Positions 15,992-40,912 of a stretch of 60,807 bases of DNA are shown here, piece by piece. Below the pieces are notes generated by a model. It had not been told where the DNA came from. It made no database searches and worked only from the letters and a program-made list of their open reading frames with translations. The position numbers were made by a program, and so were the translations under genes. This DNA is from a virus. Location: positions 1 through 60,807 of the IMG/VR virus record IMGVR_UViG_3300045944_000168; one strand, given 5' to 3'. Numbering within the stretch: the stretch's first letter is position 1; every line of letters starts with the position of its first letter.

Positions 15992-16255
15992 ATGACGCTT
16001 GATATTGAGATCATGCAGGTCGAGACAGGTGAGATCGCGACACTGATTTCGGAGTGGGACGAAAGGGATGAGTGGCCTCCGTTTTTTTGGACCGATGGAA
16101 ATTTTTCGTGCGATTGCAATCGAGAGCTGGAATTTTATCGTGTGAAGGGGCAGCCGAGATCCGTCGACCACGCGCAGTGTGGAAGTGGCCGGTATTGTGT
16201 GAAGCTTACGGCTGGAGATCAGATCTATGATGAGTTGTCAGAGGTTGCACCATGA
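15992..16255 (+). CDS. hypothetical protein, 87 aa
   Basis: Acidic N-terminus, a Trp/Phe-rich WPPFFWTDGNFSCDC segment and four cysteines (CDC, CG, C). It ends overlapping the portal start (ATGA). No family recognised. Confidence 0.5.
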   Translation: MTLDIEIMQVETGEIATLISEWDERDEWPPFFWTDGNFSCDCNRELEFYRVKGQPRSVDHAQCGSGRYCVKLTAGDQIYDELSEVAP

Positions 16256-20167: not shown

Positions 20168-21232
20168 ATGCAACAGTACGCAACAACCGTCGCTCGCATT
20201 GGGAAATTTGCCGGGAAGGTCCTGGCCCATGCGGTGTGTGAAGAGATTTTAGCGAAGATGGGGGAACAGATCCCCATGCCGACCAATAAAAGCGATCTGA
20301 TGATCTGTCGTCGGTGGTTGCCGTATGGCGCCACGGCGACAAGTGCAAACAGCCAAAATCGATTCTATCAGGATGGCAACGGTGATCGGGCACTAACGAT
20401 CGTGCAGGCGCACCAAACGCAGGACGGCGTGACGCCGACGCCAGATACGATCGTACCGGTCGATGTCAGCGCACAGATTCTGCAATACACCTGTTTGTAC
20501 GGCTATACCGATAAAACGGCGTTGTTATTTGAAGACGATATTCCTGCGCAGATGAAAGTTCAGGTTGGGGAGCGGGTTGCATTCGTCAATGAATTGAAGA
20601 TCTACGGTGAGCTGCGGGCGAGCACCAATCAATTTTATGGAGGGAGCGGAACCAGCCTATCAACGGTCAATGGTGCTTTAACGTTGGGGCTGTTGCGGAA
20701 AATCACGAAAGCGTTAGATGCGAACCATGCCAAGCCGATCAACAAGATGTTATCGGCGTCCGAGAAATATGGCACCACACCGGTTCGGATGGGTTGGGGG
20801 GTATACATTCATCCAGACATGGCCCCGGACGTGCGGAATTTGCCGGGGTTTGAAGATTCCTCGAAGTACGCATCGGGGACGCCACTGCCTGGCGAGTTAG
20901 GCAAGTGCGAAGAGTTTCGTTTCATCAAACACCCCGATATGCCGCCGATCCAGAACGGAGGAGCCGCGATTGGGGGAACGAACCTCTATTCGACGAGCGG
21001 CACCAGCATCGATGTGTACCCCTTCATTGTGTTGGCGATGGACGCTTTTGCGCAGATTTCGCTGCGCGGAGAAACGGCGATTAAGCCGACGCACTTGCCG
21101 ACTGGGCAAAAAGATAAGGCGGACATTTTCGGGCAGCGCGGCTATGTGGGAGCCATGTGGTGGAAGGCCGTGCTGCGCAAGAACGATGGCTGGATGGCGA
21201 TCGGCAATGTTGGTGTGAAGAACCTCGAATAA
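20168..21232 (+). CDS. major capsid protein (N4-gp56-like family)
   Basis: A 354-aa HK97-fold capsid protein. The N-terminal TVARIGKFAGKVLAHAVCEEIL and IPMPTNKSDLMICRRWLPYG are typical of the N4-gp56 family. The centre has VYIHPDMAPDVRNLPGF, and the end has GYVGAMWWKAVLRKNDGW. Many copies form the head. A GGAAAGG sequence precedes the ATG. It follows the scaffold gene, the usual order. Confidence 0.82.
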   Translation: MQQYATTVARIGKFAGKVLAHAVCEEILAKMGEQIPMPTNKSDLMICRRWLPYGATATSANSQNRFYQDGNGDRALTIVQAHQTQDGVTPTPDTIVPVDVSAQILQYTCLYGYTDKTALLFEDDIPAQMKVQVGERVAFVNELKIYGELRASTNQFYGGSGTSLSTVNGALTLGLLRKITKALDANHAKPINKMLSASEKYGTTPVRMGWGVYIHPDMAPDVRNLPGFEDSSKYASGTPLPGELGKCEEFRFIKHPDMPPIQNGGAAIGGTNLYSTSGTSIDVYPFIVLAMDAFAQISLRGETAIKPTHLPTGQKDKADIFGQRGYVGAMWWKAVLRKNDGWMAIGNVGVKNLE

Positions 21233-22893: not shown

Positions 22894-23628
22894 ATGCCCA
22901 TTGGATCGTCTACGGCGTCGCTCGACGGGCAAGCGACGTTCCTCGAAATCTGTCAACAGGCTGTGCAGGAATGCCGGCTGGCCCATGGGGCGAATCGATT
23001 GCCGACTTCGGTGATGGCGCAAGTCGGGGAATTGCGGCGCCTCGTGGATTGGACGGCGGAAGCTTGGTTTGAAATTCAATCGCTGCATCCGAACTGGAAT
23101 TTTAAGCGTCATACCACCACGTTTGTGACTGTTCTGGGCCAAGCAGAATATGCGACGGTTGAATGTAATGTGGATCCCGGCACGTTTGGGCGATGGGTGC
23201 CAGACTCCTTTCGGTGTTATGAAACGGCGGTGGGCCTCTCCTCAGAGCAGCATTTGACGGACATGCCCTATGCGGCATGGCGAGACACCTATCAGTTCGG
23301 TACGATTCGGACCTCGACGGCGCGTCCAAATGTCATCACGCAACTTCCCAATAACGGCTTAGGGCTCGGGTTTGCGCCGCTCGCGGGGTACACCATTCTC
23401 GGCGATTATTTTACCGCGCCGATTCGCATGGAGACCGATGAAGAAATCCCCGAATTGCCGATTGCGCACAGCTACATGATCATTGTGTACAAGGCGATGA
23501 CGTATTACGGCGAAGCTGAGTCCGCGATGGAAGTTCTTTCGAGAGGAGAACGTGGCTATAGCCGGTTGTTGACTGCTTTGCAGGAGGATCAATTGCCGCA
23601 ACTCGTGATGGCAGGAGCGATGTGGTAA
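22894..23628 (+). CDS. head-to-tail adaptor protein
   Basis: A 244-aa protein. The opening ATFLEICQQAVQECRLAHG and the helix RRLVDWTAEAWFEIQSLHPNW are typical of podovirus connector/adaptor proteins (P22 gp4 or T7 gp11-like), which form the ring under the portal. It comes immediately before the large nozzle-like protein, as expected. Confidence 0.7.
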   Translation: MPIGSSTASLDGQATFLEICQQAVQECRLAHGANRLPTSVMAQVGELRRLVDWTAEAWFEIQSLHPNWNFKRHTTTFVTVLGQAEYATVECNVDPGTFGRWVPDSFRCYETAVGLSSEQHLTDMPYAAWRDTYQFGTIRTSTARPNVITQLPNNGLGLGFAPLAGYTILGDYFTAPIRMETDEEIPELPIAHSYMIIVYKAMTYYGEAESAMEVLSRGERGYSRLLTALQEDQLPQLVMAGAMW

Positions 23629-23630
23629 CG

Positions 23631-25718
23631 ATGCCGACTGCACGCACTCCTATCCGTGCGCTTCCAACGATCGAGTATGCCACCATCGAATTTAAAGGTG
23701 GGCTTGATCAAGTCACGCCGGTTCTGCGCTTAGATCCTGGTGTGCCGCGCGATGCGCTCAATTATGAGTGTGCGATCACCGGGGGGCATACGCGAATTGG
23801 GGGATATGAGCGCTACGATGGTCGGTTCAAGCCGGCGGATGCAACGTATTCAATTATTCAGGTGACGGGGTTTGCGAATGTCCCGAGTGTGGGGCAAACC
23901 TTAACCGGACAAACAACCGGAACCACGGCGACCATTGTCGCGGTGGACGAAGCGAAAAATTATATGGCGGTGACGTTGATTGTCGGCGCGGGGTTTTCCA
24001 CGTCGGAAATCGTCAAGGTTGGCACCACTACCATTGGAGTTGCGACCATCGTGACCGTATTCGTGAATGCCCGGTCAAACTCCATTTATCTGAATGCCGC
24101 GGCCGATGTGTACCGTGCGTTGATTGCGGCGCCGCCAGGGTCCGGCGCGATCCGCGGCGTGTTTTCGATGGTCAACGGCAATGTACATGAGGTCTTTGCC
24201 TTTCGCAACAACGCCGGGGGGACCGCGTGCGTACTGCATAAAGCGTCGGTATCGGGGTGGACTGTTGTGCCGTATTTGCATGAAGTTGCATTTACCGGTG
24301 GTAGTGTTGCGCCAACTGAAGGGTTGACCATTACGCAGGGAGCGAATTCTGCCACGGTGCGACGGGTGATGGTGGAATCTGGAACCTGGGGCGGGGGGAC
24401 GGCTGCGGGACGATTGATTATCACGGCGCCGACTCCAGGGAACTTCTCAGCGGGAGCATTGACGACGGGTGGAACCTTAACGCTTGCTGGTGCGCAGACG
24501 GCTATTACGATGTTGCCAAGTGGAACGTTTGAATTTGATGTAGGAAATTTTTCCGGCGCGGCGGGCACACAGCGGATCTATGGGTGCGATGGGTCGAATC
24601 GATGCTTTGAGTTCGACGGCGTGACGTTAGCGCCGATTAAAACAGGACTGACCACTGATGCGCCGACGCATATTGCCGTGCATCAAAATCATTTATTTGT
24701 GAGTTATAAAAGCTCGGTACTGCATTCAGGGATCGGGACGCCGTTTAATTTCACGGCTCTGGCCGGCGCGGCGGAATACGGAACGAGTTTTGTCGTGACC
24801 GGATTCAAGGTGCAGCCTGGCGCGCAGGATACCCCATCGATCTTGATTACGCTGACCCATGGTCTGCGTATCATGTACGGATCGGCGGCGGCGGGATCGA
24901 ATCCGTTCCGCCTTGTGAATTTTCATACTGAGACCGGCGGGGCGGCACGGAGTCTCCAGACCCTGGATCGATCGTACTTTCTTGGGGCAACGGGGGTGCT
25001 GGATTTGGCGCGCGTTCAAGAGTTCGGCAATTTTGCGGCAGCCTCGCTCACGTTTTCCATGCAGCCCTATGTTGAATCGAAACGCACGTTGGTCTCTGCG
25101 AGTTGTACTCATAAAACCAAAAGTCAGTATCGACTGTTCTTCTCAGATGGCAGCGGCCTCTACTTGACGATTGTGAATGGAAAGCCGGTTGGCGCGATGC
25201 CTATCCTCTTTCCTAATCCTGTGACGTGCGCGTTTAATGGGCAATTGTCAAACGGGGTCGAGGTGATTTATTTCGGGTCGACGAACGGCATGGTGTACCA
25301 GTTGGAACGGGGCTCCTCGTTTGATGGAGAGGCGATTGATTACTATTTGACTCCCAATTGGGCGTCGATGAAATCGCCTCGAATTTTGAAGTCGTACCGG
25401 AAGGCGAGCCTTGAAATGTACGGAGATAGCTATGCGGAAGTGGTGTTTAGCTATCATCGTGGATACAGCTCTCCTGAATATGCTGAGCAATCAGGCATTA
25501 CGTATGCCTCGAATTTTCAAGGGGTGCCTCGGTGGGATAGCGGTATTACGTGGGATGCGTTTGTCTGGGATGGATCGACCTTGGGACCGACAGAAATTGA
25601 AGTGAGCGGGGATGGTGAAAATATTCGAGGTCGGTTAGGCGGCAGTTCTGACTACATTTATCCGTTTACAGTGAGTTCACTCACGTTTTCGTATATTCCG
25701 CGTCGAGGGATTAAATGA
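23631..25718 (+). CDS. tail nozzle / DNA-stabilisation-like protein
   Basis: A 695-aa beta-rich protein. The N-terminal IEFKGGLDQVTPVLRLDPG and ITGGHTRIGGYERYDG match the start of podovirus nozzle or P22 gp10-type proteins, which plug the portal channel. Internal Gly/Thr-rich repeats with GTTATIVAVDE and GTFEFDVGNFSGAAG are followed by a propeller-like region. ATG 23631 is used; GTG 23622 is an alternative. The stop overlaps the next gene. Confidence 0.65.
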   Translation: MPTARTPIRALPTIEYATIEFKGGLDQVTPVLRLDPGVPRDALNYECAITGGHTRIGGYERYDGRFKPADATYSIIQVTGFANVPSVGQTLTGQTTGTTATIVAVDEAKNYMAVTLIVGAGFSTSEIVKVGTTTIGVATIVTVFVNARSNSIYLNAAADVYRALIAAPPGSGAIRGVFSMVNGNVHEVFAFRNNAGGTACVLHKASVSGWTVVPYLHEVAFTGGSVAPTEGLTITQGANSATVRRVMVESGTWGGGTAAGRLIITAPTPGNFSAGALTTGGTLTLAGAQTAITMLPSGTFEFDVGNFSGAAGTQRIYGCDGSNRCFEFDGVTLAPIKTGLTTDAPTHIAVHQNHLFVSYKSSVLHSGIGTPFNFTALAGAAEYGTSFVVTGFKVQPGAQDTPSILITLTHGLRIMYGSAAAGSNPFRLVNFHTETGGAARSLQTLDRSYFLGATGVLDLARVQEFGNFAAASLTFSMQPYVESKRTLVSASCTHKTKSQYRLFFSDGSGLYLTIVNGKPVGAMPILFPNPVTCAFNGQLSNGVEVIYFGSTNGMVYQLERGSSFDGEAIDYYLTPNWASMKSPRILKSYRKASLEMYGDSYAEVVFSYHRGYSSPEYAEQSGITYASNFQGVPRWDSGITWDAFVWDGSTLGPTEIEVSGDGENIRGRLGGSSDYIYPFTVSSLTFSYIPRRGIK

Positions 25719-26638
25719 AAAAACTCGCGTTAAGTTGTGCGTTTGTGCTGGGCACGTTCTCCATCGTGTGGGGGGTGAACGAATATTATTCACACGGGAG
25801 TTTTCCGTCGCCGTCGTCGCCGGCTACATCGGCATCGATGCGGGCTGAGTTTGATTTAATTTCGTCGGGGTTTGATAAGCTTCCGGTCCTGACTGGGAAT
25901 GGTGGCAAGCTCATCCAGATCAATGGTGGTGGCACGGCGTTGTCGGTCATGCCTGGTGGGTCATTATCTTTAGGTGGCAATCTTGTCTTTAGCGGGGCCT
26001 ATAACACGACGTTTGTTCAGCAACAGACGACGACGCTGACGCTTCCTAGCACCAATGGTACGTTGGTAACGGCGCAGGGCGTTGAGACCCTCTCGAATAA
26101 AGCGCTGAACCTTTCTAATTCCACATTGACCGGTACTACAGCGCAATTCAACAACAGTTTATCGGACGGTGATTTTGCCACTTTAGGAGGCATTGAAACC
26201 CTCACGAGTAAACTGATTCAGTTTCCCGCGTTACAGAATTCTTCGTCCAACGCGAATACGTTGGACGATTACGAAGAGGGAAGTTGGACGCCCAGTGTGG
26301 GCGGCACAGCGACGTATACCACGCAGAACGGGCATTACGTCAAGGTTGGGCGCCTGGTGTGTTTGAACGGACTGCTGACGATCAATACGATTGGCACGGG
26401 AAACCCCAATACGATTTCAGGGATACCGTTTAGTCCGACCTATGACGTAGCCATTCCGATTTCGCGGACAGCGAACCTGTCAACGTCCGTGACTTCGATT
26501 TCGGGGGTCATTTTTGGTGGGTTTTTGTCGGTGGCGCTCTATTCGCGCACAGCAGCCTCAACGTCTGATGCGCAAAACAGCGTGTTAGGGAACGGCTCCT
26601 CATTTAGCTTGTCCGGCTGTTATTCCACAGCGACCTAG
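25715..26638 (+). CDS. fibre-like protein with signal peptide
   Basis: A 307-aa protein starting inside the previous stop. It opens with KK and a hydrophobic segment (LALSCAFVLGTFSIVWG), like a Sec signal or membrane anchor, unusual for a virion protein. The middle has tail-fibre-like repeats (TLTLPSTNGTLVT, ETLSNKALNLSNSTLTG), and LDDYEEGSWTPSVGG matches a motif common in phage fibres and spikes. It is probably a receptor-binding or surface-exposed protein and the first of seven similar genes with signal sequences. Confidence 0.6.
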   Translation: MKKLALSCAFVLGTFSIVWGVNEYYSHGSFPSPSSPATSASMRAEFDLISSGFDKLPVLTGNGGKLIQINGGGTALSVMPGGSLSLGGNLVFSGAYNTTFVQQQTTTLTLPSTNGTLVTAQGVETLSNKALNLSNSTLTGTTAQFNNSLSDGDFATLGGIETLTSKLIQFPALQNSSSNANTLDDYEEGSWTPSVGGTATYTTQNGHYVKVGRLVCLNGLLTINTIGTGNPNTISGIPFSPTYDVAIPISRTANLSTSVTSISGVIFGGFLSVALYSRTAASTSDAQNSVLGNGSSFSLSGCYSTAT

Positions 26639-26650
26639 AAAGGATCTGGT

Positions 26651-27043
26651 ATGGCGGCGATTCAACCAACAATTACGCACAAAGTCGGCGATGAAGACGG
26701 CTCGTTGATGTTTGCGGTATGGGTGCTGTCAACGACCGATAATATCGGGATCGGGGTACCCATGGCGGAATGGATTGACCGCACCTGGCACGTCAAGATT
26801 GATGGGGGGGGATCGATTGGCGGCGGGACCGTCGCGGTTGAGACGGCGCCGTCCGATACCAATGCGGACTACGCGGCGTGCAAGAATGCGGCTGGTGGGG
26901 CAGCGATTTCGCTCACGGGTGCGACGTGCGCCACCAGTATTGAAAATGTGGGGTTTATGCGACCGAAACTGAACGGGTCAACGGGGGCGTCTGGGGTGCG
27001 TGTCACTCTTCTGGCGCGTCGTCCGAATACCATGAGGCAATAA
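26651..27043 (+). CDS. hypothetical virion protein, 130 aa
   Basis: AAAGGA before the ATG. The protein looks beta-rich, with WVLSTTDNIGIGVPMAEWIDRTWHV and a Gly-rich loop. It lacks a signal peptide and lies between fibre-like genes. Not recognised. Confidence 0.45.
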   Translation: MAAIQPTITHKVGDEDGSLMFAVWVLSTTDNIGIGVPMAEWIDRTWHVKIDGGGSIGGGTVAVETAPSDTNADYAACKNAAGGAAISLTGATCATSIENVGFMRPKLNGSTGASGVRVTLLARRPNTMRQ

Positions 27044-27044
27044 G

Positions 27045-27584
27045 ATGGGAAAAACTACGGCATCAGTGGATACGCTCGATCGGCTCGCGGTGCAGCTGTC
27101 CGGGATTCAGGAAGCGGCCAAGCAGCTACGGGAAATCGGTTCGTATGACGGCGCGATCGAAGAATTGAAGAAGCAGAAGGAAACATTGCTCAAGGAGATC
27201 GAGGTTGAGCGGACGACGCTGAGCGAACTGCAGAAAACAATTCAGGCGTCGATTGCCAACGCACAACATGAGGTCGATGAGATCCGCAATACAGCCGCAA
27301 GCATCATCGACGATGCAAAAAGGCAAGCCACGAAAATCGTGCAGGATGCAGAAGCGAAGGCCGTGCAGCGTGCGGCAACAGAACGCACCAAACGGGAAGG
27401 AGATTTGTCCGGCATCCAAAAGCAGATCGATGAAGAAACGATCAAACTGAATGGGATGAAGGCGAAAACCGCACAGGCGCTTGCAAAGATTGATGCGATA
27501 GAAAAACGGGCTCAGGACGCGCAACAGGCACTTGAATCAATTCAAAATGCGGTGAAGGCGCAGGCGAAAGCGCTCGCGGAATGA
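27045..27584 (+). CDS. long coiled-coil protein, 179 aa
   Basis: Nearly all predicted helix and coiled coil from residue 25 on (IEELKKQKETLLKEIEVER, AQHEVDEIRNTAASIIDDAK), similar in style to F-type ATPase b subunits or to tail-chaperone and internal proteins. It starts one base after the previous stop. Could act as an assembly or ejection component; no direct match. Confidence 0.5.
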   Translation: MGKTTASVDTLDRLAVQLSGIQEAAKQLREIGSYDGAIEELKKQKETLLKEIEVERTTLSELQKTIQASIANAQHEVDEIRNTAASIIDDAKRQATKIVQDAEAKAVQRAATERTKREGDLSGIQKQIDEETIKLNGMKAKTAQALAKIDAIEKRAQDAQQALESIQNAVKAQAKALAE

Positions 27585-27593
27585 GTCCACGCC

Positions 27594-27722
27594 ATGCTGA
27601 CGCCAGCGGTAATGATCGCGCTGAAGTTGCTGCAGGGAGCCAGTAACGTTGGAGAGGGGGGCGGAGGGAGCGGAGCGTTGACGTTGTGGCGCCCCACGTG
27701 GATTCCGAGGAGACGTGGATAA
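27594..27722 (+). CDS. 42-aa microprotein ORF
   Basis: ATG 27594 to TAA 27722; helical N-terminus (VMIALKLLQGA), Gly linker (GEGGGGSG) and a basic end. It fills the space between two structural genes and directly abuts GTG 27723. Its GAGGAG near the end serves the next gene. Modest support. Confidence 0.35.
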   Translation: MLTPAVMIALKLLQGASNVGEGGGGSGALTLWRPTWIPRRRG

Positions 27723-28181
27723 GTGTCGGACAATTTTCAGACCGATGCATCGGCGGGTGACGGAAAGACCTTTGCGAGTGATGAAGTTGTTGGGGGGCCG
27801 ACTGGAGGGACGTGTGATTATCCACTCTCAAAACTTGCGTTTGGTCCGCTGGATGCCGCCACGATTGTTGACGATGCGGCCGGGGCTCGATTCCCTGTTA
27901 AGGTTAGCGATGGGCTTGGTGCTGCGGCGGTTTTATCTGGACAGATTTCTCTCTCAGGAGCGGAGTCTGCGCTCTCGGCGGCTGTGGCGAGACGATTCAA
28001 GCTGAAAGCCCATGTGGACAATACTGATGTGGTGTATGTAGGGACGACCGGTGTTACCACGAGTAGTGGCTATCCGCTCTGGCCAGGAGATCCGATGGAT
28101 GTTGAGGTCTCAAATTTGAACGTCGTGCATGCCATTGTGGGATCCGGGACACAGAAGCTGAGTTATTTAGGGTTTGTGTGA
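27723..28181 (+). CDS. hypothetical virion protein, 152 aa
   Basis: GTG start with GAGGAG about 12 bases upstream. Small beta-rich protein (VSDGLGAAAVLSGQISLSGAE, VVYVGTTGVTTSSG) likely a tail or fibre-attachment component. Stop overlaps the next gene's start (TGATG). Confidence 0.5.
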   Translation: MSDNFQTDASAGDGKTFASDEVVGGPTGGTCDYPLSKLAFGPLDAATIVDDAAGARFPVKVSDGLGAAAVLSGQISLSGAESALSAAVARRFKLKAHVDNTDVVYVGTTGVTTSSGYPLWPGDPMDVEVSNLNVVHAIVGSGTQKLSYLGFV

Positions 28182-30550
28182 TGATCATTCTACTTTTCAT
28201 CCTGCTGCTTGCTCCTTCCATCGTCTTTGGACAGACCACGAACTCACGAATACAGGCCGGAGATGGAACGCCGATTACCGATACGACCAATGGTCGATTG
28301 GATGTTACGGTGCAAAATCCGGTCAATGCGGCGCAGAGCGGCACTTGGAATGTGACTAACGTCTCAGGCACGGTATCGTTGCCGACTGGCGCAGCCACAG
28401 AAACGACGTTGGGGACACGGCTGGCCGATGCGACCTTCACGGGGAGATTTCCGGCAGCCTTTGCTTCTGCCGACAACATTGCCGCTCAAACTGCAACGTT
28501 CATTCACGGGGGCTTGTTCGCCTGGGACAGTGGTGGTGGCAATTGGGATCGACTGTTGCTGACCTCGGGGGCGCTGCACGTGAATGTGCAGAATGCGAGC
28601 CTCGCTGTGACGCAATCGGGAGCATGGAGCCTTACGGCGAATGCCGGCTCCAATCTGAATACCTCAGCCTTAGCGCTCGAATCCGGCGGCAATCTGGCAG
28701 GGCTGAACGGAAAATTCCCTGCGGCGGCAGCGTTGGCCAACGATACGGCCAATCCTACCCTTTCGGCCATTGCGTCCTACAACATGTGTTTTGATGGGGC
28801 TACGTGGGACCGGTGCGCGAACATGGCCACGGACACCGATGATAATTCACTTGCGAGTGGACAGGTTACCGGGATCGACATCAGTTTGAACTACGGGTTT
28901 GATGGTACCAATTGGGTGCGGCAACGCGCGTTCTCGTCTGCAGACAATATTGCGGCACAAGTCGGGCAGTTTATGCACGGTGGATTGATGGCCTGGGATT
29001 CAGGCGGTAGCAATTGGGATCGGGTCTTGATTGCCAGCGGACGGCTGCAAGTGGATGGGTCTGGGGTGACGCAACCGATTTCTGGGACGGTGACGGTTGG
29101 TACATTCCCTGATAATGAACCGTTCAACCTTAGCCAGATTGGCGGCAATGCTGTCAGTGCTGGAGTCGGTGTATCTGGAACCGGCACGCTGCGAGTGGCG
29201 GCCATTCTTCATGATGGGACGGATACGGCGTCCGTGACGGCGGCTGGTCGGCTGGAAGTTGAGTGCGGCAATTGTTCAGGATCTGGCGCCACTCATGTAG
29301 ATGATGCTGCTTTTACCGCTACTTCTGACGATGTAGCCCCACTCGGTGCACTCTATGATACGACACCTCCGGCCATTACGGATGGGCGTGTGGGTGTTGC
29401 ACGGATGAATTCCAATCGCGCTTTGATGGTGGACGGCTCCGGCGTCACGCAACCCGTCTCTGGAACGGTGACCGTAACGGACGGCGCCGGCGCGTTGAAT
29501 GTGATTGTCGATTCAGGGTCTCTCACAGCCAACGCGGGAACGAATCTGAATACCTCGGCGCTAGCCCTGGAATCTGGCGGCAATCTGGCGACGGTGGCGG
29601 GGGTGGTGGATGCGACCGGGACGGCCGTGCCAGCCAACACGCTGTTTGTCGGGGGGACGGACGGGACCAATACTCGGGCGCTCAAGACTGATTCGAGCGG
29701 CGAGCTGCAAGTCGACGTGCTCACACTGCCCAGCGTGACGATTGGGACCTTTCCCGACAACGAACCGTTCAATGTGGCGCAAATCAATGGCTCGACGGTG
29801 CAAGTCGCGAGCAACAGCCTCAATACTACTGGCGCGGGCTTGCAAGCGCAGGCGATGGTGGGCCAGTGCGACGACACTTCGCCTACCTCCTTGACCGAGA
29901 ACCAATTCGGGCATGCGCGAATCAACTGCACGACGCACCATCAGCTTGTCGAAGTCGGCGCGGCGCTTCCGACAGGCGCCAATACCATCGGGAATGTGAA
30001 CCCAGGGACGGCAACGAACTGGGGGATCTACGCCGAAGATAACGGCGAAACAGCCGGCGGAAATCTGATGATGGCGGGCACGGTCCGCCGGGATACGGCG
30101 GCGTCCTCAGCGGGATCAACAGGCGACAACGCGACTCTGAACACGGATGCGACCGGCCTCTTGTGGACGCGCTTGATTGATCCCTGTACCTCTGCCGCAA
30201 AAACCTACTTACCGATCAATATTTCCACGGCGGCGACGACTGAAATTACGCCCTCGCTGGCCGGGGGCAGCAATCATTATTACGTGTGTTCGTTGGTGCT
30301 CATTACGGCAGCGGCGAACAACGTGGCCTTGGTGGACGATGATAGCGACGGCTGCGGGTCGGTGACCTCCGGCTTAGCTGGCGGAACCACGGCGGCGTCA
30401 GGATTCAACATGGCGGCGAATGGCGGGCTCACGTTTGGGAATGGTCTCGGGGCGGTGTTCAAGACTGGGGGCACGAATCGGGTGCTCTGTTTGGTCACCA
30501 GTGCGTCGACGCAGCTCTCCGGGACGATGACCGTGGTAGCTGCGCCGTAG
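28181..30550 (+). CDS. large repetitive fibre-like protein with signal peptide
   Basis: A 789-aa protein. N-terminal IILLFILLLAPSIVFG is a clear hydrophobic signal with a likely cleavage after FG. The remainder is made of imperfect repeats: VTQPISGTVTV, NTSALALESGGNLA (twice), HGGLFAWDSGGGNWDR and HGGLMAWDSGGSNWDR, and GTFPDNEPFN (twice). Such repeats resemble beta-structured fibre shafts. It could be a long tail fibre or a secreted, surface-bound phage protein. Confidence 0.6.
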   Translation: MIILLFILLLAPSIVFGQTTNSRIQAGDGTPITDTTNGRLDVTVQNPVNAAQSGTWNVTNVSGTVSLPTGAATETTLGTRLADATFTGRFPAAFASADNIAAQTATFIHGGLFAWDSGGGNWDRLLLTSGALHVNVQNASLAVTQSGAWSLTANAGSNLNTSALALESGGNLAGLNGKFPAAAALANDTANPTLSAIASYNMCFDGATWDRCANMATDTDDNSLASGQVTGIDISLNYGFDGTNWVRQRAFSSADNIAAQVGQFMHGGLMAWDSGGSNWDRVLIASGRLQVDGSGVTQPISGTVTVGTFPDNEPFNLSQIGGNAVSAGVGVSGTGTLRVAAILHDGTDTASVTAAGRLEVECGNCSGSGATHVDDAAFTATSDDVAPLGALYDTTPPAITDGRVGVARMNSNRALMVDGSGVTQPVSGTVTVTDGAGALNVIVDSGSLTANAGTNLNTSALALESGGNLATVAGVVDATGTAVPANTLFVGGTDGTNTRALKTDSSGELQVDVLTLPSVTIGTFPDNEPFNVAQINGSTVQVASNSLNTTGAGLQAQAMVGQCDDTSPTSLTENQFGHARINCTTHHQLVEVGAALPTGANTIGNVNPGTATNWGIYAEDNGETAGGNLMMAGTVRRDTAASSAGSTGDNATLNTDATGLLWTRLIDPCTSAAKTYLPINISTAATTEITPSLAGGSNHYYVCSLVLITAAANNVALVDDDSDGCGSVTSGLAGGTTAASGFNMAANGGLTFGNGLGAVFKTGGTNRVLCLVTSASTQLSGTMTVVAAP

Positions 30551-30563
30551 GAGGGGGGGATGT

Positions 30564-30809
30564 ATGCCTAATATGGCTGTGCTGGTTGCTGCGTATGTGT
30601 TTCAGAATGGAGTGTTGCAGTGTCAATTGGCGACGGTCACGGCAGACGGACAAGTTGCTGATGTGTTTTTTGCGTATGATTTCGATATGAATACTTCTCA
30701 GTTCAATGCTGAAGTCGAGGCACAGGCCAAAGCGGCTCAGGTAGCTAAAAACGGCGTTGTGTTTGTACCTAGCGATAAAATTCAGATTGCGGCAGGGAGA
30801 GTGACGTGA
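30564..30809 (+). CDS. hypothetical protein, 81 aa
   Basis: GTAGGAGGGG before ATG 30564. Beta-strand-like N-terminus (MAVLVAAYVFQNGVLQCQLATV), then a helix rich in Ala/Gln. Stop overlaps the GTG of the next gene. Not recognised. Confidence 0.45.
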   Translation: MPNMAVLVAAYVFQNGVLQCQLATVTADGQVADVFFAYDFDMNTSQFNAEVEAQAKAAQVAKNGVVFVPSDKIQIAAGRVT

Positions 30810-31507
30810 AGATTCCGTTGCGAGCCTGGCATCTCTTGGTGGTGCAGCTGGTCTTAGTCGCTTCCCTGGTCTGGGCGGCGAATTCGCGGATTACCGAACT
30901 GACCGAATTGACCACCCCTGCCACTGGCGACATGCTGGAAATCGTCGATGTGTCCGATACGACGGACAACGCGGCTGGCTCCAGCCGCAAAATGCGCGTG
31001 GATCGGATCAGTGAGCAGATCTATGCCTTAGGGAGTGACTACACCAACTCGACGGCTACCGGGACGGAGATTACTGGTATTGGGCCGATGACGGCGCCAG
31101 CAGCCGGGACGTACAAGCTGGAATGTTGGCTGATTGCGCAGAACGCGACCGCCGCGAACGCCGGGGACTTTGGGGTGAACTATACCGGGACCGTCACGCA
31201 AATGTTTGCCACGTTGATTTTCCCAGATCAAGGCCAAACGGCGACGATTGGGACGGCAGACGGCACGGTCACCGGGAACGGCGGTGAGTTGATGGTGACA
31301 CACGGCTCAGTCCTGACCGAATCGACGACGACGCCGAACCTGAACATCATCGACTCCTTTGCGGGGGTGGAGGATGTCTGGATCAATATTCATGCGCTCC
31401 TCACGGTGTCGGATACGGGAGATTTTGAGATCTGGGCCGCGAGCGAATCGACCACAACCTTAACCGTGCAGTCCGGCAGTTATTGCGGTCTGCGGAGGAT
31501 TGCATGA
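30806..31507 (+). CDS. fibre-like protein with signal peptide, 233 aa
   Basis: GTG 30806 with GGGAGAG upstream. N-terminal basic-hydrophobic signal (LLVVQLVLVASLVWA) with a cut after WAA. The mature start SRITELTELTTPATGDMLEIVDVSDTT is a motif common at the N-terminus of phage tail-fibre modules. The C-terminal part is a beta-sandwich-like domain (GTYKLECWLIAQ, FEIWAASESTTTLTVQSGSYC). Confidence 0.6.
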   Translation: MKIPLRAWHLLVVQLVLVASLVWAANSRITELTELTTPATGDMLEIVDVSDTTDNAAGSSRKMRVDRISEQIYALGSDYTNSTATGTEITGIGPMTAPAAGTYKLECWLIAQNATAANAGDFGVNYTGTVTQMFATLIFPDQGQTATIGTADGTVTGNGGELMVTHGSVLTESTTTPNLNIIDSFAGVEDVWINIHALLTVSDTGDFEIWAASESTTTLTVQSGSYCGLRRIA

Positions 31508-32337
31508 TCGGGCTGATCCTCATTGCGCTATTGTTGTGGGCTGTGCCGAGTTGGGCGGCGCTCGGCATTGGCCAGAGTGAGCTGTGCCGTGCGTTGACCA
31601 CTACCTGCACCACGACGGGGGTGACCACGACCAACGGATCCTCGTTTGTGGTGTGTGTGTCCGGAAATGGCGTGCCGAATACTCCAAGCGACAGCAAAAG
31701 CAACACGTATACCGCGATTGCTACGGAATTATTTCTTGGCGCCAACAACCGCAATCGGTGTTACCACGCACTAAATGCCACTGGTGGATCATCGCATACC
31801 TTTACCGGCTCGATCGCCAGTGGCTCAGTGGTGAGTGTAATTGCTGTGGAAATCACTACAGCGACGACGACGGCGGCGGAAAGCTCAGCCAGGCAGACCG
31901 ATAACGCCACGGCGTTTCTTTCGCCTGGAACCACGACCACGCACGCAGACTCACTGCTGATCGGGTTTCAGACGTTGGAAGGGGGGAGCGCCACCTATAC
32001 GCCGACCCATGGCAATTCGTTTACCGGTCTGGATTCAGAAACCGACGGCGATCTGTATTATCCGGTGTATTCGAGTTATCGCGCGGTATCGAGCGGAACC
32101 TATAATACAAGCATTACAGTGACAGGCTCACCGACCAATACGGGGAATTGGGTGATGGCGTACTACGAAGTGCCTCCGGTGATCTCCGGCTGTCGTTTGC
32201 TCCAAAACGGGACTGATAAACGGTTGACGCAAAACGGGACTGATGGACGGATTTTGCAAGGGGGCGGGGATTGTGAACTCGGCGGCGGCGGACCGGCGGT
32301 GGTCCCTGTCCGCATGATGATAGGTGTGGGGTTATGA
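31504..32337 (+). CDS. fibre-like protein with signal peptide, 277 aa
   Basis: ATG 31504 overlaps the previous stop. N-terminal LILIALLLWAVPSWA signal. Thr/Ser-rich beta domain (carbohydrate-binding-like pattern). The C-terminus has a 27-base tandem repeat giving QNGTDKRLTQNGTDGRIL, a motif seen at the ends of phage and bacterial surface proteins. Likely exposed on the virion or cell surface. Confidence 0.55.
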   Translation: MIGLILIALLLWAVPSWAALGIGQSELCRALTTTCTTTGVTTTNGSSFVVCVSGNGVPNTPSDSKSNTYTAIATELFLGANNRNRCYHALNATGGSSHTFTGSIASGSVVSVIAVEITTATTTAAESSARQTDNATAFLSPGTTTTHADSLLIGFQTLEGGSATYTPTHGNSFTGLDSETDGDLYYPVYSSYRAVSSGTYNTSITVTGSPTNTGNWVMAYYEVPPVISGCRLLQNGTDKRLTQNGTDGRILQGGGDCELGGGGPAVVPVRMMIGVGL

Positions 32338-32338
32338 A

Positions 32339-32539
32339 ATGTCGTGGTGTCCGTGGTGCGAAACCAAGGACGATGAAGCAGACAATCGGATTTGCAAGAA
32401 CTGTCGAGAGACATTGCTGAACGAATTGAGAAAAGCGAGCCCCTGTGAGCCTGAGCGGAGTCCGTATGTGACCGTGGTGCGGTGTAATTACTGTGGGCAT
32501 CTGAAGCGGAGTGAGGAAGTGGAAGGACAGGAACGATGA
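32339..32539 (+). CDS. double zinc-ribbon microprotein, 66 aa
   Basis: ATG 32339 lies two bases after the previous stop. Three Cys pairs: CPWC, CKNC and CNYCG. No signal peptide, so cytoplasmic, unlike its neighbours. Could regulate the operon or act as an assembly factor. Its stop overlaps the next gene. Confidence 0.55.
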   Translation: MSWCPWCETKDDEADNRICKNCRETLLNELRKASPCEPERSPYVTVVRCNYCGHLKRSEEVEGQER

Positions 32540-33930
32540 TGTCTGTACGTAATATGGCCAGATGGAGTCTTGGGGTGGTGCTGTTCTGCCTACTGCATCA
32601 GTCAGTATTTGCAATGGAGCATTATACGGAAGTCTTGAAGGATGGCAAAGGGAACTCCATTAAAGGGGCATCGATCTATGTCTATAACGCCGGCACTACT
32701 ACGCCGTCCCAAATTTATTCAGATAACGGCATTACGCCAAAGGCCAACCCGTTTCTGACCTCCAGCACGATCGATCATCCAGGAGCGTTCGATTTCTACG
32801 CAGTCGGTGGCGTCTACGATATCGTGATTATGAAAGAAGGCTATTCGTTTGATCCGCTGTTGACGAGACGAATTGCGTTGTTTGATCAAACGTCCGGGTT
32901 GGCGATTCCGTATGGACCATCATTTCCTTCCTCTCCCGCTCTGCATTCGCTGTTCATCCTGACCAGCGATAGCGGCGCGAACTGCGAACAAAGCGGGGGA
33001 GTCGTCGTGACGCTTTGTCGATGGGATGGGCTGGCCTGGGCGGTGTTCGGCGGAGGCGGAGGCGGCGGAGGCGGAGGCGGCGGAACAACCGGTTGGCCAT
33101 CGGTCTTAACGGGTGCAGCGGCTACGAGCGAAACGGCAGGGCAGTCCGTCAACATTCGAGGAATCGGTGCGCAGTCAGCCAATGGCAACGATCGCTTCCA
33201 AGGATCTGACGGAATGTTCTACGACGTGTGTGTGGTCGGGAACGTTCGGAACAATTGTAATTATTCTCGGCAACTTAATGCGGGGTTTTATTGGGAGATC
33301 AAGGACGATGATGGCAACGCGATTTTCAGGGTAACGAACGACACGCAGGAACTCACCAACGTAAGGCTGAACGGAGCGAGTTCCGGCAATACAATTATTC
33401 TCACGGAGGAAGATCATTGGGACGTAGCCGCCTGTCAGGATACTACGGCGCAGGCCATCTTCAATCTTCCAACGACGAACGCACCGACCCCCGTTTGTGA
33501 GGGGAGCAACACACGGCTGGCGACGCTCGATTTCAACGATACAACGGATCAGAGTTTCTCTGCTCGATTGATTCTTCCAACAGGGTATCAGTCTACTCCT
33601 GGCATCGATGTCCATTTCCGATGGAAGGCGGCATCGACGTCCGGCACGGTCATGTGGTGCGCGAGATTTGCTCGTGTCGCGGTTGGCTCAACCTCAGATC
33701 CATCGCTTCCATCGGAAACCACGTCGAGTTGTGTGAGTGATACGGCCAACGGTTCGACGCTCACTGAAAATACTACGACCATCGCATCCGTTGCCTGTAC
33801 GTCATGTGCAGCCGGCGATGCCGTTAATGTGGTGGTGTCTCGTGATGCGAACGGCACTTCTGGAACCGACAGTATGACTGGGGACGCTAAGCTCATGAAC
33901 TGGGGGCGAACGTGGACGGTGGCTCACTAA
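32536..33930 (+). CDS. tail-spike-like protein with signal peptide and polyglycine linker
   Basis: A 464-aa protein. Signal region WSLGVVLFCLLHQSVFA is followed by YTEVLKDGKGNSIKGASIYVYNAGT and IYSDNGITPKANPF, the head-binding-type domain often found in phage spikes. Residues about 171-182 are twelve glycines encoded by GGN repeats (33047-33088). Next comes a Thr/Ala-rich hinge, then a beta domain. A secreted signal on a spike-type protein is unusual. Confidence 0.65.
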   Translation: MMSVRNMARWSLGVVLFCLLHQSVFAMEHYTEVLKDGKGNSIKGASIYVYNAGTTTPSQIYSDNGITPKANPFLTSSTIDHPGAFDFYAVGGVYDIVIMKEGYSFDPLLTRRIALFDQTSGLAIPYGPSFPSSPALHSLFILTSDSGANCEQSGGVVVTLCRWDGLAWAVFGGGGGGGGGGGGTTGWPSVLTGAAATSETAGQSVNIRGIGAQSANGNDRFQGSDGMFYDVCVVGNVRNNCNYSRQLNAGFYWEIKDDDGNAIFRVTNDTQELTNVRLNGASSGNTIILTEEDHWDVAACQDTTAQAIFNLPTTNAPTPVCEGSNTRLATLDFNDTTDQSFSARLILPTGYQSTPGIDVHFRWKAASTSGTVMWCARFARVAVGSTSDPSLPSETTSSCVSDTANGSTLTENTTTIASVACTSCAAGDAVNVVVSRDANGTSGTDSMTGDAKLMNWGRTWTVAH

Positions 33931-35084
33931 TGACACGGATCATTCTCCTGTTTCTCCTGCTCTTCTGTTGGTCCAGTGCGCCACAGGCGCAGCTGGCCAA
34001 AGTGGTGTATCTCGCGCCATATGACGGAGACGGGAGCGGAGAGAACCCGTTCCGCCCACGTGGGATGGACGAACAGACCGGATGTATCGATGTGCGCAAG
34101 AATCCAGAGCAAGCGGCCGGGGTCGCGATCTGTGGACGCCAGAGTCTTCCGGCGGGAACCGGCTATATCGAACTCTCAAATCGGTTGGACGGCATCTTGA
34201 GCCGTGCACAGCGACAGGCGATCGAAAGTCGTCTATTGGACGGCGACACGCTTACGGCCACGGACGTACCGGGCATTCTCGTGGAACTCTTGATTGATCG
34301 GCGGAGCGGCGCAAATAAGCTCCGCCAGAATCGTGACGGGAAATACCACATTTATCTCGGTCGAGAAGAGGCGGTCAAGCGCACGGCCTGGCTCTACGAT
34401 CAGTGGCACGTGAACGATAACGGTCTTGTGGCTGATACCACTAATGCCGTTTTCGCGCTACTGCAACCATCGCTCGCGTGGGCGGCCTCCTATACCGAAG
34501 ATTGGGACTGTGCCGACAACGCGGCGCTCACCTGCGACCTCACATGGACGGAAGTCACCGGGACAGGGTGGGAGATTTTCTCCAACGTGGCTCGCACCCT
34601 GACGACGGCGACGGGACGGGCACGCGCAGAGAGTGCGTTAGACACGGACGATCATAAAGTCTCTGCCACCATGACGACCTTTGCCATTACTGGCGGGACG
34701 TTTGGGCGCTGCGGTGTGATGGGGCGGAAAGACGGTACGTCGGCGAATAATTCATACGTGTTCGTGGCGAACAATTTCTCTACGACTAGCGGCTTCGAGC
34801 TTGGCGTGTTTACGGGCGGCGCGATTTCGGTGATTGGCACCAGTACGCAAGATCAGGTCGATGGCGATGTCCTTACGCTCATCGTGGATGGATCGAGCAT
34901 CAGTGGGGATGTCGATACGTCGGTCATCGTCGGGCCGGTGACGGATATGGCTGTTTCTGGAAATCTGTATGGCGGTATTTATAGCAACGGCAATAACACG
35001 AACTTGGATTGCCGATTGAATAATTTTGCAACTGAAGATCTCCCTCCTCCTCCATGGAGTGGAGTGTTAAGGAGACGTGCATGA
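33930..35084 (+). CDS. secreted fibre-like protein, 384 aa
   Basis: Start overlaps the previous stop at one base (TAATG). N-terminal IILLFLLLFCWSSAPQAQ is a strong signal peptide. The N-terminal domain has KVVYLAPYDGDGSGENPFRPRG and is rich in charged residues. The C-terminal half resembles a concanavalin/laminin-G-type beta sandwich (FGRCGVMGRKDGT..NSYVFVANN). Possibly binds a glycan. Confidence 0.55.
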   Translation: MTRIILLFLLLFCWSSAPQAQLAKVVYLAPYDGDGSGENPFRPRGMDEQTGCIDVRKNPEQAAGVAICGRQSLPAGTGYIELSNRLDGILSRAQRQAIESRLLDGDTLTATDVPGILVELLIDRRSGANKLRQNRDGKYHIYLGREEAVKRTAWLYDQWHVNDNGLVADTTNAVFALLQPSLAWAASYTEDWDCADNAALTCDLTWTEVTGTGWEIFSNVARTLTTATGRARAESALDTDDHKVSATMTTFAITGGTFGRCGVMGRKDGTSANNSYVFVANNFSTTSGFELGVFTGGAISVIGTSTQDQVDGDVLTLIVDGSSISGDVDTSVIVGPVTDMAVSGNLYGGIYSNGNNTNLDCRLNNFATEDLPPPPWSGVLRRRA

Positions 35085-37879
35085 TGAAGCAGGCATTGTT
35101 TGCTGTGGTCTGTTTGCTCTGGCTGACAACGGCATATTGGCTCACGTTTGCGCAGGCTCCGATCGTGACGTATTGGGTTTCTCCCTCTGGGAGTGACGCG
35201 AATGCCTGTTCGGCAGTCGATGGGAGCACTGATCCCGGCGTGTATAAAGCGACGCCAAACGGGGTCATGACCTGCCTCACAGGGGGCGGGAAGGCCATTA
35301 TTCGAGCTGGAACGTATACCGGTTCGACGGCCCATTTCCGCAATCTGCCGTCCGGGACGCCAGGATCTCCCATCATTATTGAAGGCGATCCCAACGATTC
35401 TCCAGGATGTGCGTTGGCCGAAACGTGTTCAACGATTTTGCAGCCGGCCACTGGGTCTGTGAACTCCATCATTCCAGCGTCAAATTATATTATCCGCAAG
35501 TTCATTATCGATCATACGAACAACCGGAATTATCCGATCCGCATTGGTGGGAATGGAGTGACGACTTGTACTAACGTCCTGATTGAGGATGTGGTTTTGC
35601 GGAACACGCAACTGTCTGATGGTGGAGCCGGGGGAGCTACGGGGCTGATTACGGATGATGCTTGTAATTTCATTACCTTCAGACGGATGCATATTCATCA
35701 TAATGGGGAAGTCCCTGGCGGTGGCCCTGGCGGGTATTTTCAGAGTGATGATACGACGTTTGAGGATGGGTGGGTTCACCATAACTCATATATTGGGATT
35801 CAGTGCTACAGCTCTTTCCCCGGAGTTGCGAGACCGGATCGATGCAAAATCTTACGATCGATCATCGAAAACAACGATAATGCAGGAATATTTCTCGAAG
35901 GAGACGATGATGAAGCCATTGGAAATATCATCAGGAACAACGGAGGAGGAATCGATACGGGGTCAAACGGCGCGGCTAGAGCGCATATCTACAATAATGT
36001 CATCGCAAACGGTAGTATCAACATCGGCGCATCAGGGTCTGGACCTAACTCGATCATTCGAAACAATATTATGATGGGCAATGTGACGGTCAGTGCTGGC
36101 TCCACGGGGACGATTGTGTCTCACAATGCGTGCCTATCATCCAGTAATTGTGGGACGAATAAGCTGACGATTGCATCTATTGCTGATCTGACCGTTTCGT
36201 CCAGCAATTTCAGTTTGAAACCAGGTTCTGCGGCGATTAATGCGGGTATCGATGTCGGGTTGCCGTTCAACGGATCGGCTCCTGATATCGGCATGAGTGA
36301 AACCTTTCTTGTCTCGTCCGCGACGGTGGCGACCAATGTCGTTGAAGTGGTTGTCGGCATGAACCTGAATACGCCGGTTGTCCCGACCTCATCTGGTTGG
36401 TCGGTAGGCTGTACTGGAACGGGATGCGGATCTCCAGTCGTTTCGACTGTTACGCTGAAATCAGGCACCAGCGCCACGATCCAACTGGTGATTACGGGGA
36501 TTACCGGCACGAACTGTGATGCCGGCCAAACCTGGACCGTGAGCTATTCCAGTGCGACCGGCACTACGACGAATTTTACGTGGGTTGTCAATCGGCAAGC
36601 CTTGACGAGTGCTACGAATTTCGCAGTGACGAACAATTGTACGGGCGGTGGGCCACCTCCACCGGCCGGATTGCATATTTATTACAAGCTTGATGATGGG
36701 ACCGGTACGAATGCCAACGATGAGACAGCGAACAATCTGGATGGGACCTTAACGAATAGTCCAGCGTGGGTCGCGGCCCGCAATGGGCAGGGTGTGTCCA
36801 TCACGCAAGCCAGTACCCAATATATTGCCATGCCCTATGGTAGCGGGATCAATCCTCTCTCGCAATCGCTCACCGTCTCCTTCTGGGTCTATGTCACCGA
36901 TGTGAATTTCCTGGGAATTCGCTGGGGCGCGCCACTCGGCACGAATCAACGGCTGTATATCGGACAACAGAGCGGCACGTGGCGAATTGGCGTGCAGGAT
37001 TCTAACTACAGCACAGGGGCGTCAGATAAAGCAGTGGAAGTCGGCTGGACGCATCTTTGTATGACAGTGGACAACGCGACGCCTGGTAGCGGTACAGGGA
37101 CTGCGACGTTGCATGTCAATGGAGTTGCGTCAAATTCTCCGAATGCGAAGAAGACCTATACGTCCTACGCGCTAGCCGACAATTTCCGTGTGGGTGGCAT
37201 TGCAGCGAATCCTACTCCCGGAGGCATCTATGACGATGTAAAACTATGGCTTGGTATTGTTTCTTGTGCCGACGATTTTGCTTCCTCTAATCCTCCTACT
37301 TCTCCGTGGATCGGCACACTTTCGTCTGTCGCTGCGCAATTTTATATGACCAAGACAGATCCGGCCAGTGTGCTGATCCCGCTTGGGAAAAACAACGCCA
37401 ACGTGACAATCCCTCCTGGGGGGGCATGGGCCTTGTTGCTCGAAACGAAATGCGAGGCGGGTGTGAATTGTACGCCGATCGGGCAAAAGCTCTTTTATTC
37501 CTGTGCGGCCTGTCCGAGTAATGGATCGATTTTATTGATGCCGAACACGGCGACCACGGACGGCATTGAATTTTGGGGCCAGACCACGGAGCCAGGATTG
37601 TTGAGTGGAGCACCACCGAACAAACTGACGACCGGTACGTCAGTGGATGTGGCAGGCGGAACAAACCCGAATGCCGATACAATCCCTGTGGTGGGATTGA
37701 ATCAAAATCAAAGCACGGTGATTGCGTATCTTGGCCGTATTGTTCCAGGAACGCCGACCGGGCGAACGTTCTGTATGAAGCCGCGCGAGCAATCCGGGCT
37801 CGATTTAAATGGTGGCTATACGCCGCCTGGAGGAGCGTGTGTGACGGTAGGCATTCCAACTTCGACTGGCGGGCCGTGA
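35081..37879 (+). CDS. large secreted beta-helix plus LamG-like protein
   Basis: A 932-aa protein. Signal LFAVVCLLWLTTAYWLTFAQA, then a mature start VTYWVSPSGSDANACS typical of right-handed beta-helix (pectate-lyase-like) proteins. Residues about 100-330 carry many short repeats with Asn (NYIIRKFIIDHTNN, IIENNDNAGIFLEGDD, NIIRNNGGGID). A LamG-like domain follows (HIYYKLDDGTGTNANDETANNLDG ... WTHLCMTVD). It probably binds or degrades surface polysaccharide. It is the last and largest of the signal-bearing group. Confidence 0.65.
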   Translation: MMKQALFAVVCLLWLTTAYWLTFAQAPIVTYWVSPSGSDANACSAVDGSTDPGVYKATPNGVMTCLTGGGKAIIRAGTYTGSTAHFRNLPSGTPGSPIIIEGDPNDSPGCALAETCSTILQPATGSVNSIIPASNYIIRKFIIDHTNNRNYPIRIGGNGVTTCTNVLIEDVVLRNTQLSDGGAGGATGLITDDACNFITFRRMHIHHNGEVPGGGPGGYFQSDDTTFEDGWVHHNSYIGIQCYSSFPGVARPDRCKILRSIIENNDNAGIFLEGDDDEAIGNIIRNNGGGIDTGSNGAARAHIYNNVIANGSINIGASGSGPNSIIRNNIMMGNVTVSAGSTGTIVSHNACLSSSNCGTNKLTIASIADLTVSSSNFSLKPGSAAINAGIDVGLPFNGSAPDIGMSETFLVSSATVATNVVEVVVGMNLNTPVVPTSSGWSVGCTGTGCGSPVVSTVTLKSGTSATIQLVITGITGTNCDAGQTWTVSYSSATGTTTNFTWVVNRQALTSATNFAVTNNCTGGGPPPPAGLHIYYKLDDGTGTNANDETANNLDGTLTNSPAWVAARNGQGVSITQASTQYIAMPYGSGINPLSQSLTVSFWVYVTDVNFLGIRWGAPLGTNQRLYIGQQSGTWRIGVQDSNYSTGASDKAVEVGWTHLCMTVDNATPGSGTGTATLHVNGVASNSPNAKKTYTSYALADNFRVGGIAANPTPGGIYDDVKLWLGIVSCADDFASSNPPTSPWIGTLSSVAAQFYMTKTDPASVLIPLGKNNANVTIPPGGAWALLLETKCEAGVNCTPIGQKLFYSCAACPSNGSILLMPNTATTDGIEFWGQTTEPGLLSGAPPNKLTTGTSVDVAGGTNPNADTIPVVGLNQNQSTVIAYLGRIVPGTPTGRTFCMKPREQSGLDLNGGYTPPGGACVTVGIPTSTGGP

Positions 37880-40473: not shown

Positions 40474-40912
40474 GCTGAAATCCTGGTGGACCAGAACCAC
40501 CGTTGATCCGGAGTATATTTTGATCACGATGGTGATTATGGCTTTTGCGCTCTTGGTCATTGTCGCGCTGGTTCCAATGGTGGTCCATGCGGGCGCGTGC
40601 TTGGTGATTGAAGTCCCGCCGCAAGCGGTGACCTGGGTCCAAGACGGCGATACGTTCACCTTGTTCAATTTCGCGCCAGGGGGAGCGGTGAAAATCAGAG
40701 TCTCGAACGTCGATACGCCTGAGAAGAAAGAGCCGAAGTTTGAAGAAGCGCGACAGTTTACACGGGACTGGCTTGCTAAAGGAAAATTCATCGTCGATAC
40801 ATGCGGTGAATATACGTTTGAGCGCATTCAAGCCGTGGTGACGCGGGATGATCAGACATTGGCGCAAGAGTTGATCCGTGCAGGACTCGGGACCGCTGGA
40901 AAGAGGAACTAA
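40466..40912 (+). CDS. membrane-anchored thermonuclease-like (SNase) protein
   Basis: A 148-aa protein; the start overlaps the end of the i-spanin gene. Residues about 14-37 are hydrophobic (EYILITMVIMAFALLVIVALV), then an SNase-like domain: VQDGDTFTLF, KIRVSNVDTPE (Arg and Asp of the active site) and FERIQAVV (second Arg). The last part is LAQELIRAGLG. It would hydrolyse nucleic acid outside the inner membrane, perhaps of host or competing DNA. Confidence 0.7.
   Translation: MSRLKSWWTRTTVDPEYILITMVIMAFALLVIVALVPMVVHAGACLVIEVPPQAVTWVQDGDTFTLFNFAPGGAVKIRVSNVDTPEKKEPKFEEARQFTRDWLAKGKFIVDTCGEYTFERIQAVVTRDDQTLAQELIRAGLGTAGKRN

Follow-up and report, generated by a model that had tools for sequence, protein, structure and literature searches.

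The window analysed here, an IMG/VR virus record of 60,807 nt, contains seven genes (P1 to P7, all on the forward strand; Table 1) whose products begin with Sec-type signal peptides (SPs), and which follow the tail nozzle gene where podovirus fibres are expected. In the sequences we see predicted SPs, their placement immediately in front of known fibre domains, their joint presence or absence, their recurrence in other phages and an even cysteine content of the mature parts; from these we infer export, cleavage, disulphide bonding and attachment to the nozzle or virion. The favoured explanation, which is considered probable but far from assured, is that P1 to P7 are podovirus fibres and spikes with added SPs, and that they would pass into the periplasm, be cleaved and oxidised there, and join the virion at or after lysis. 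The observations thus suggest that these short-tailed phages may route their fibres through host secretion and then fit them to the virion.

The window encodes a terminase, a portal protein, an N4-gp56-like major capsid protein, a giant late protein of 2868 aa and an integrase, and therefore represents a podovirus that is probably temperate. The giant protein (44874-53480, +) carries the polyvalent-protein domains LPD1 and LPD38 and lacks cysteine altogether, and the integrase (55148-56392, -) is of the tyrosine type (Phage_integrase, 1.6e-20), so that the phage may be temperate. A C-5 cytosine DNA methylase is encoded close to the left end (906-1646, +). Near the lysis genes, a gene at 40373-40912 (+) encodes an SNase-type nuclease domain after a hydrophobic segment, possibly an exported or membrane-tethered nuclease.

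Table 1. Genes and signal peptides in and around the fibre block of the window. A slash separates the signal peptide from the first mature residues.
Feature	Position	Strand	Basis or remark
Portal protein	16252..18612	+	context
Major capsid protein	20168..21232	+	context; served as query for relatives
Tail nozzle protein, T7 gp12 / P22 gp10-like fold	23622..25718	+	directly upstream of P1; 4-bp overlap of its stop with the start of P1
P1, first tail fibre, 307 aa: SP (~aa 1-20), N-terminal anchor domain NEYYSHGSFPSPSSPATSASMRAEFDLISSGFDKLP, then C-terminal domain common to many phage fibres	25715..26638	+	
P1 signal peptide, MKKLALSCAFVLGTFSIVWG / VNEYY	25715..25774	+	scorer
Small genes without SP between P1 and P2 (26651, 27045, 27723)	26651..28181	+	scorer
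P2, 789-aa SP protein, low-complexity repeats of the type GTWNVTNVSGTV	28181..30550	+	
P2 signal peptide, MIILLFILLLAPSIVFG / QTTNS, no n-region charge	28181..28231	+	scorer
P3, 233 aa, GTG start: SP, then fibre N-terminal domain NSRITELTELTTPATGDMLEIVDVSDTT	30806..31507	+	
P3 signal peptide, MKIPLRAWHLLVVQLVLVASLVWA / ANSRI	30806..30877	+	scorer
P4, 277-aa SP protein, no known family, 6 Cys in mature part	31504..32337	+	
P4 signal peptide, MIGLILIALLLWAVPSWA / ALGIG; cleavage ambiguous, residue 18-21	31504..31557	+	scorer and inspection
P5, 464 aa: SP, then head-binding-type domain from Met27	32536..33930	+	
P5 signal peptide, MMSVRNMARWSLGVVLFCLLHQSVFA / MEHYT	32536..32613	+	scorer, alignment
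P6, 384-aa SP protein; homologue in L283 35% identical, SP kept	33930..35084	+	
P6 signal peptide, MTRIILLFLLLFCWSSAPQA / QLAK; cleavage ambiguous, residue 15-20	33930..33989	+	scorer and inspection
P7, 932-aa spike-like protein: right-handed beta-helix and LamG/ConA-like domain, 22 Cys in mature part	35081..37879	+	
P7 signal peptide, MMKQALFAVVCLLWLTTAYWLTFA / QAPIV	35081..35152	+	scorer
Post-fibre region: DUF5675 protein (38052), holin-like TM protein, spanin-like genes, SNase-like protein with TM segment	38052..40912	+	holin and spanin by inspection

SPs were called with a home-made scorer of the n-, h- and c-regions, which scored 15 of 16 known signal peptides from E. coli at 9 or higher and only 2 of 241 internal-Met segments at 10 or higher; a cut-off of 10 was used for the block statistics. 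The N-termini of P1 to P7 all score as type-I signal peptides (10.1-12.0). At the cut-off, 7 of the 12 forward genes in the block are positive, versus 1 of 65 genes elsewhere in the window (Fisher p = 2.5e-6), and virion genes outside the block have no SP by the scorer. The sole positive gene beyond the block (53498-53836, on the opposite strand) has a strong SP, MKPVLLAALLLFPISAMA / QVSCFDYGG, two cysteines in its mature part and no family. The first-pass annotation had described seven genes in a row with Sec signals; the seven signals stand, but the genes are not strictly consecutive, five small SP-less genes (26651, 27045, 27723, 30564 and 32324) being interspersed among them.

The start codons of all seven genes overlap the preceding stop by 1-4 bp, by which their N-termini are fixed. 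A hydrophobic core and small residues at -3/-1 are found in all seven, with a charged n-region in all but P2 and P4, and neither a lipobox Cys nor a twin-arginine motif was seen in P1 to P7. When the first 32 residues are shuffled with their composition preserved, 0.05-8% of the shuffles score as high as the real sequence, with the genes at 31504, 35081 and 33930 (P4, P7 and P6) being the weakest; therefore, the score partly reflects a plain hydrophobic N-terminus. This is the one point in favour of regarding the SPs as artefacts, i.e., as wrong starts or functionless hydrophobic N-termini. Such a reading is hardly credible, because it is already contradicted by the concentration of seven SPs in one block, by 13 distinct SP-bearing relatives, and by the coordinated distribution and the recurrence in unrelated phages described below. 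Type-I Sec signal peptides on all seven proteins are thus well supported, as is, at the level of sequence, the predicted export; cleavage is likewise predicted.

Relatives were located via the capsid protein, and the set was then widened by a profile search (contigs and loci compared are given L-numbers). The gene right after the nozzle gene in these relatives encodes either an SP followed by N(D/E)(F/Y)Y.HGSFP..., or the same domain from residue one, as in the SP-less fibres that begin 'MSN-NFYTHGSFP...'. The domain was found with an SP in 20 loci (13 distinct fibres) and without one in 76 loci (61 distinct fibres), so that the survey of related phages proposed at first pass revealed both forms. 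In 12 of the 13 SP fibres the scored cleavage falls at one common anchor residue or at most 2 residues ahead of it; in the exception, L003, the highest score goes to a site six residues farther upstream, but a VFGS site that would fit is visible at the domain start. The anchor domains of SP and SP-less fibres are 66% identical, equal to the identity within the SP-less fibres (66%), while the SP segments share 17.5%. Therefore, the domain is conserved, whereas the SP is conserved only as a type.

The position of P1 points to a virion role. P1 lies next to the tail nozzle gene in the late operon, and the predicted model of the nozzle protein (pLDDT 82.7) has its best PDB fold matches among the tail nozzles and hubs of Pa223, SU10, T7 gp12, phiM1, VP1, P22 gp10 and Pam1. 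Moreover, the anchor domain is present in a single copy in each of the six SP genomes or records searched, and therefore these have no second, cytoplasmic fibre of the P1 type. In L007, the SP-bearing fibre has hits to tail and tail-collar families of PHROG (4e-17). The P1 anchor itself has no significant PDB, Pfam or PHROG match, and matches to spike glycoproteins (E 0.04-1.4) were dismissed as chance coiled-coil matches; because the domain has neither structure nor family, its putative nozzle-binding role is deduced from position and conservation. P1 is accordingly described here as a nozzle-adjacent fibre with a putative virion-binding N-terminal domain. The predicted model of the P1 fibre was discarded (pLDDT 44). 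Among 50,697 phage records, neither an SP-bearing fibre of this type nor a relative of the SP fibre N-terminus was found; Salinibacter phage matches were set aside, since they cover no more than a central portion of an SP fibre that is itself unrelated (L066), and the Salinibacter fibre has no SP in its annotation.

Two side observations concern the same region. Zinc-ribbon/HNH-like coding sequence is inserted between the nozzle and the first fibre at L003:15550-15664 and L137:9441-9950, the L003 insert being open in frame with the SP fibre. In L013, L015, L024 and L027 an SP-scoring gene lies between the capsid and nozzle genes (e.g., L013:4509-5180, MTRKSFVCWALIMAVLALMPLPAMA / SDAG...), whose product possibly has further membrane segments.

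P5 and P3 show the same graft of an SP onto a fibre domain. The mature N-terminus of P5, MEHYTEVLKDGKGNSIKGASIYVYNAGTTTP, is the place where the related spikes and fibres of Vid5 (gp10), 1N2-2, GJ44 and MyoSmar directly start, and in the alignment Met27 of P5 corresponds to Met1 of Vid5 gp10. A profile of five sequences (P5 and its relatives) matches in the PDB the Pam1 'tailspike head-binding domain' 7eeq (2.7e-4) and the tail spike 9vyg (4e-4); the domain also gives weak matches to CarboxypepD_reg, an Ig-like fold that often occurs on exported proteins. Vid5 gp10 was detected in virions by LC-MS/MS, and its N-terminus was likened by its authors to the particle-binding domain of the P22 tailspike (PMC6266253). 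For P3, 64 distinct SP-less fibres begin at the domain that forms its mature N-terminus (ANSRITELTELTTPATGDMLEIVDVSDTT), and the one homologue with an SP, L335, has its scored cleavage at offset 0. The N-terminus of P5 is thus a tailspike head-binding-type domain, and those of P1 and P3 are the N-termini of many SP-less fibres, with binding being putative in each.

Met27, the first mature residue of P5, is encoded by an ATG without a Shine-Dalgarno sequence, which is read here as a candidate old start codon left behind after addition of the SP. The residual ATG, together with the lack of n-region charge in P2 and P4, may instead be taken to indicate dual use, in which an inefficient or late SP would leave part of the fibre to be assembled normally in the cytoplasm while the exported molecules serve another purpose, for example to block the host receptor. 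This is unlikely, considering that the residual ATG has no Shine-Dalgarno sequence, that a usable start is missing from the mature N-terminus of most SP fibres, that an SP left in place would stay attached to the anchor domain, and that the SPs are kept as a set. An internal start giving an SP-less fibre form was likewise rejected, because Shine-Dalgarno sequences are absent.

The long hydrophobic cores and the ambiguous cleavage sites of P4 and P6 would also be compatible with uncleaved N-termini that act as membrane or virion anchors, e.g., by tethering the fibres to the inner membrane before lysis. Such anchoring appears very unlikely, because the relatives have the domain without any hydrophobic segment and because the -3/-1 small-residue motif lies at the conserved domain start in most fibres. 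The first-pass annotation had offered three options for the SPs: exported adhesins or glycan enzymes, fibres attached during release, and membrane anchors. The second is favoured by the mature N-termini of P1, P3 and P5, which are domains of SP-less fibres, by the single anchor copy and by the nozzle slot; anchors are disfavoured, and exported adhesins retain some weight, especially for P2, P4, P6 and P7.

These four proteins have no recognisable virion-binding domain. The earlier description of the mature parts as fibre-, spike-, beta-helix- or LamG-like holds for P1, P3, P5 and P7, the last of which matches Laminin_G_3 (2.4e-10) and Beta_helix (9.8e-6) in Pfam, but not for P2, P4 and P6, which match no family. 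P2 shows weak similarity to SP-bearing proteins from L120, L003 and L125; viral-contig searches with P2 and with the single-sequence P5 domain returned almost nothing. The strongest rival to the favoured explanation is that the SP proteins are exported without being virion components, former fibre genes having given rise to surface or periplasmic adhesins, superinfection-blocking decoys or glycan enzymes. Phages do export proteins encoded in the tail region, as shown by lambda Lom, which carries a signal peptide (PMC12309495). Besides the lack of a virion-binding domain in four of the proteins, beta-helix, LamG, TIG and fn3 domains are also frequent on secreted bacterial proteins, and prophage expression is possible because the window has an integrase. 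However, the SP genomes searched have no nozzle-adjacent fibre other than P1, so that the slot would be empty if P1 were not a virion protein; its anchor domain is as conserved as in SP-less fibres; P5 starts with a head-binding-type domain; and the overlaps of 1-4 bp with the nozzle gene and with each other indicate late expression alongside virion genes. The rival is accordingly rated as rather improbable, although less so than any other alternative.

The SPs of a locus appear to switch as a set. Among genes within 9 kb downstream of the fibre, an SP is present on 20 of 34 in the SP loci versus 7 of 118 in the SP-less loci, and several of the latter seven resemble membrane or ejection proteins. 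On the nozzle tree the SP/no-SP label needs four changes, at least two of which are on supported branches, and L208 represents a separate gain. The L007 contig has four SP genes after the nozzle and four more at its other end, the joining of the ends being putative.

SP-bearing fibres also recur elsewhere, in unrelated phages. For example, L283 has homologues of P5, P6 and P7 that have kept their SPs (44% identity over 660 aa for P7), L066 encodes a tape measure and a tail protein followed by two SP fibres, L286 has three SP genes, one of which is a PHROG tail fibre, and L294 has a spike with an SP while its sibling L291 has one without; further cases are L287, L299 and L302. L291 and L294 come from one sample and share the N-terminal spike domain with the SP in only one of them, and so offer a natural pair for experimental comparison. 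SPs are rare where the sampling is less biased, being present in 3 of 83 distinct fibres with the C-terminal domain of P1, two of the three being query seeds. Relatives were found on contigs of metagenome-assembled genomes of Nitrospiraceae (L120), Nitrospirales (L122) and Magnetococcales (L125); these may be free phage contigs binned with the genomes, and thus poor host indicators.

The mature parts of P1 to P7 contain 2, 10, 2, 6, 10, 6 and 22 cysteines, respectively, all even numbers. In the SP loci, even counts are found in 25 of 32 SP proteins (p = 0.001, which is optimistic because some loci are near-copies) versus 38 of 80 other genes, with odd counts in 7 of the 32. The cysteine density of the SP proteins in the window is 1.79 per 100 aa versus 0.53 in the other late genes, a difference that shrinks to only about 1.8 versus 0.8 when the cysteine-free 2868-aa protein is left out. 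The even and elevated cysteine content fits periplasmic disulphide bonding, the bonds themselves being predicted.

The favoured explanation may be set out as a sequence of steps. The receptor-binding set would be made as pre-proteins and exported by SecYEG, and signal peptidase would cut off the signal, which would recreate the N-terminus with which SP-less relatives are synthesised. The fibres would fold in the periplasm, probably with disulphide bonds, while fibreless virions would assemble in the cytoplasm and take up the periplasmic fibres via the N-terminal domains during or directly after the rupture of the envelope at lysis. Because capsids assemble in the cytoplasm, attachment at or after lysis is the simplest way in which virions and periplasmic fibres could meet. 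Late, spontaneous addition of the tailspike is known in P22.

A broader reading is that this is a recurrent, independently acquired strategy, in which the whole receptor-binding apparatus passes through Sec, matures in the periplasm and is mounted during or after lysis, intracellular virions being fibreless and fibre sets gaining or losing the signal together; for this reading the chances are judged to fall a little short of even. The common view is that virions of tailed phages are finished in the cytoplasm. With export of receptor-binding proteins and their addition at lysis, assembly would take place in two compartments, disulphide bonds would be available to fibres, and unattached fibres may in addition prevent superinfection or re-adsorption. 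Since SP and SP-less orthologues occur as pairs, the export idea can be tested directly. Fibre-finding pipelines may misfile SP fibres as bacterial; one survey of phage-encoded hypervariable proteins took the fact that they lack signal peptides as support for phage origin (PMC6199706). In the open-access full-text literature searched, whose coverage is incomplete, no report of Sec-exported tail fibres was found, and the first-pass statement that no system of this kind has been described is uncontradicted there.

Several known systems share part of these features. The window resembles the T7 gp17, P22 gp9 and Pam1 tailspike systems in having, after the nozzle gene, a gene with a conserved N-terminal domain and a variable rest, and its likeness to podovirus tailspikes extends to the head-binding-type domain of P5 and the beta-helix of P7. 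In those systems, however, the binding domain starts at residue one and synthesis is cytoplasmic, whereas the window fibres begin with an SP; contrary to the cytoplasmic synthesis without signal peptide of podovirus fibres, all seven carry one. The SP-less relatives L134, L142, L011, L122 and L192 have the same nozzle and the same slot, with an anchor about 57-81% identical to the SP-form consensus, but their fibre has no SP and almost no SPs follow downstream. Vid5 gp10 of Pantoea phage vB_PagS_Vid5, a virion protein by mass spectrometry, shares the N-terminal domain of P5 but begins at the Met equivalent to P5 residue 27, after the SP. Lambda Lom, like P1 to P7, is an SP-bearing phage protein encoded in the tail region; it differs in being an outer-membrane beta-barrel of the lysogen without a fibre domain, and Pfam scans of P1 to P7 gave no such barrel but beta-helix, LamG and fibre domains. 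SP and SAR endolysins are also phage late proteins that use Sec, but they are lysis enzymes and not receptor-binding proteins. The inovirus coat proteins pIII and pVIII are virion proteins with cleaved Sec signals; in contrast to the window phage, which is tailed and would assemble its capsids in the cytoplasm, inoviruses are filamentous and are extruded through the envelope.
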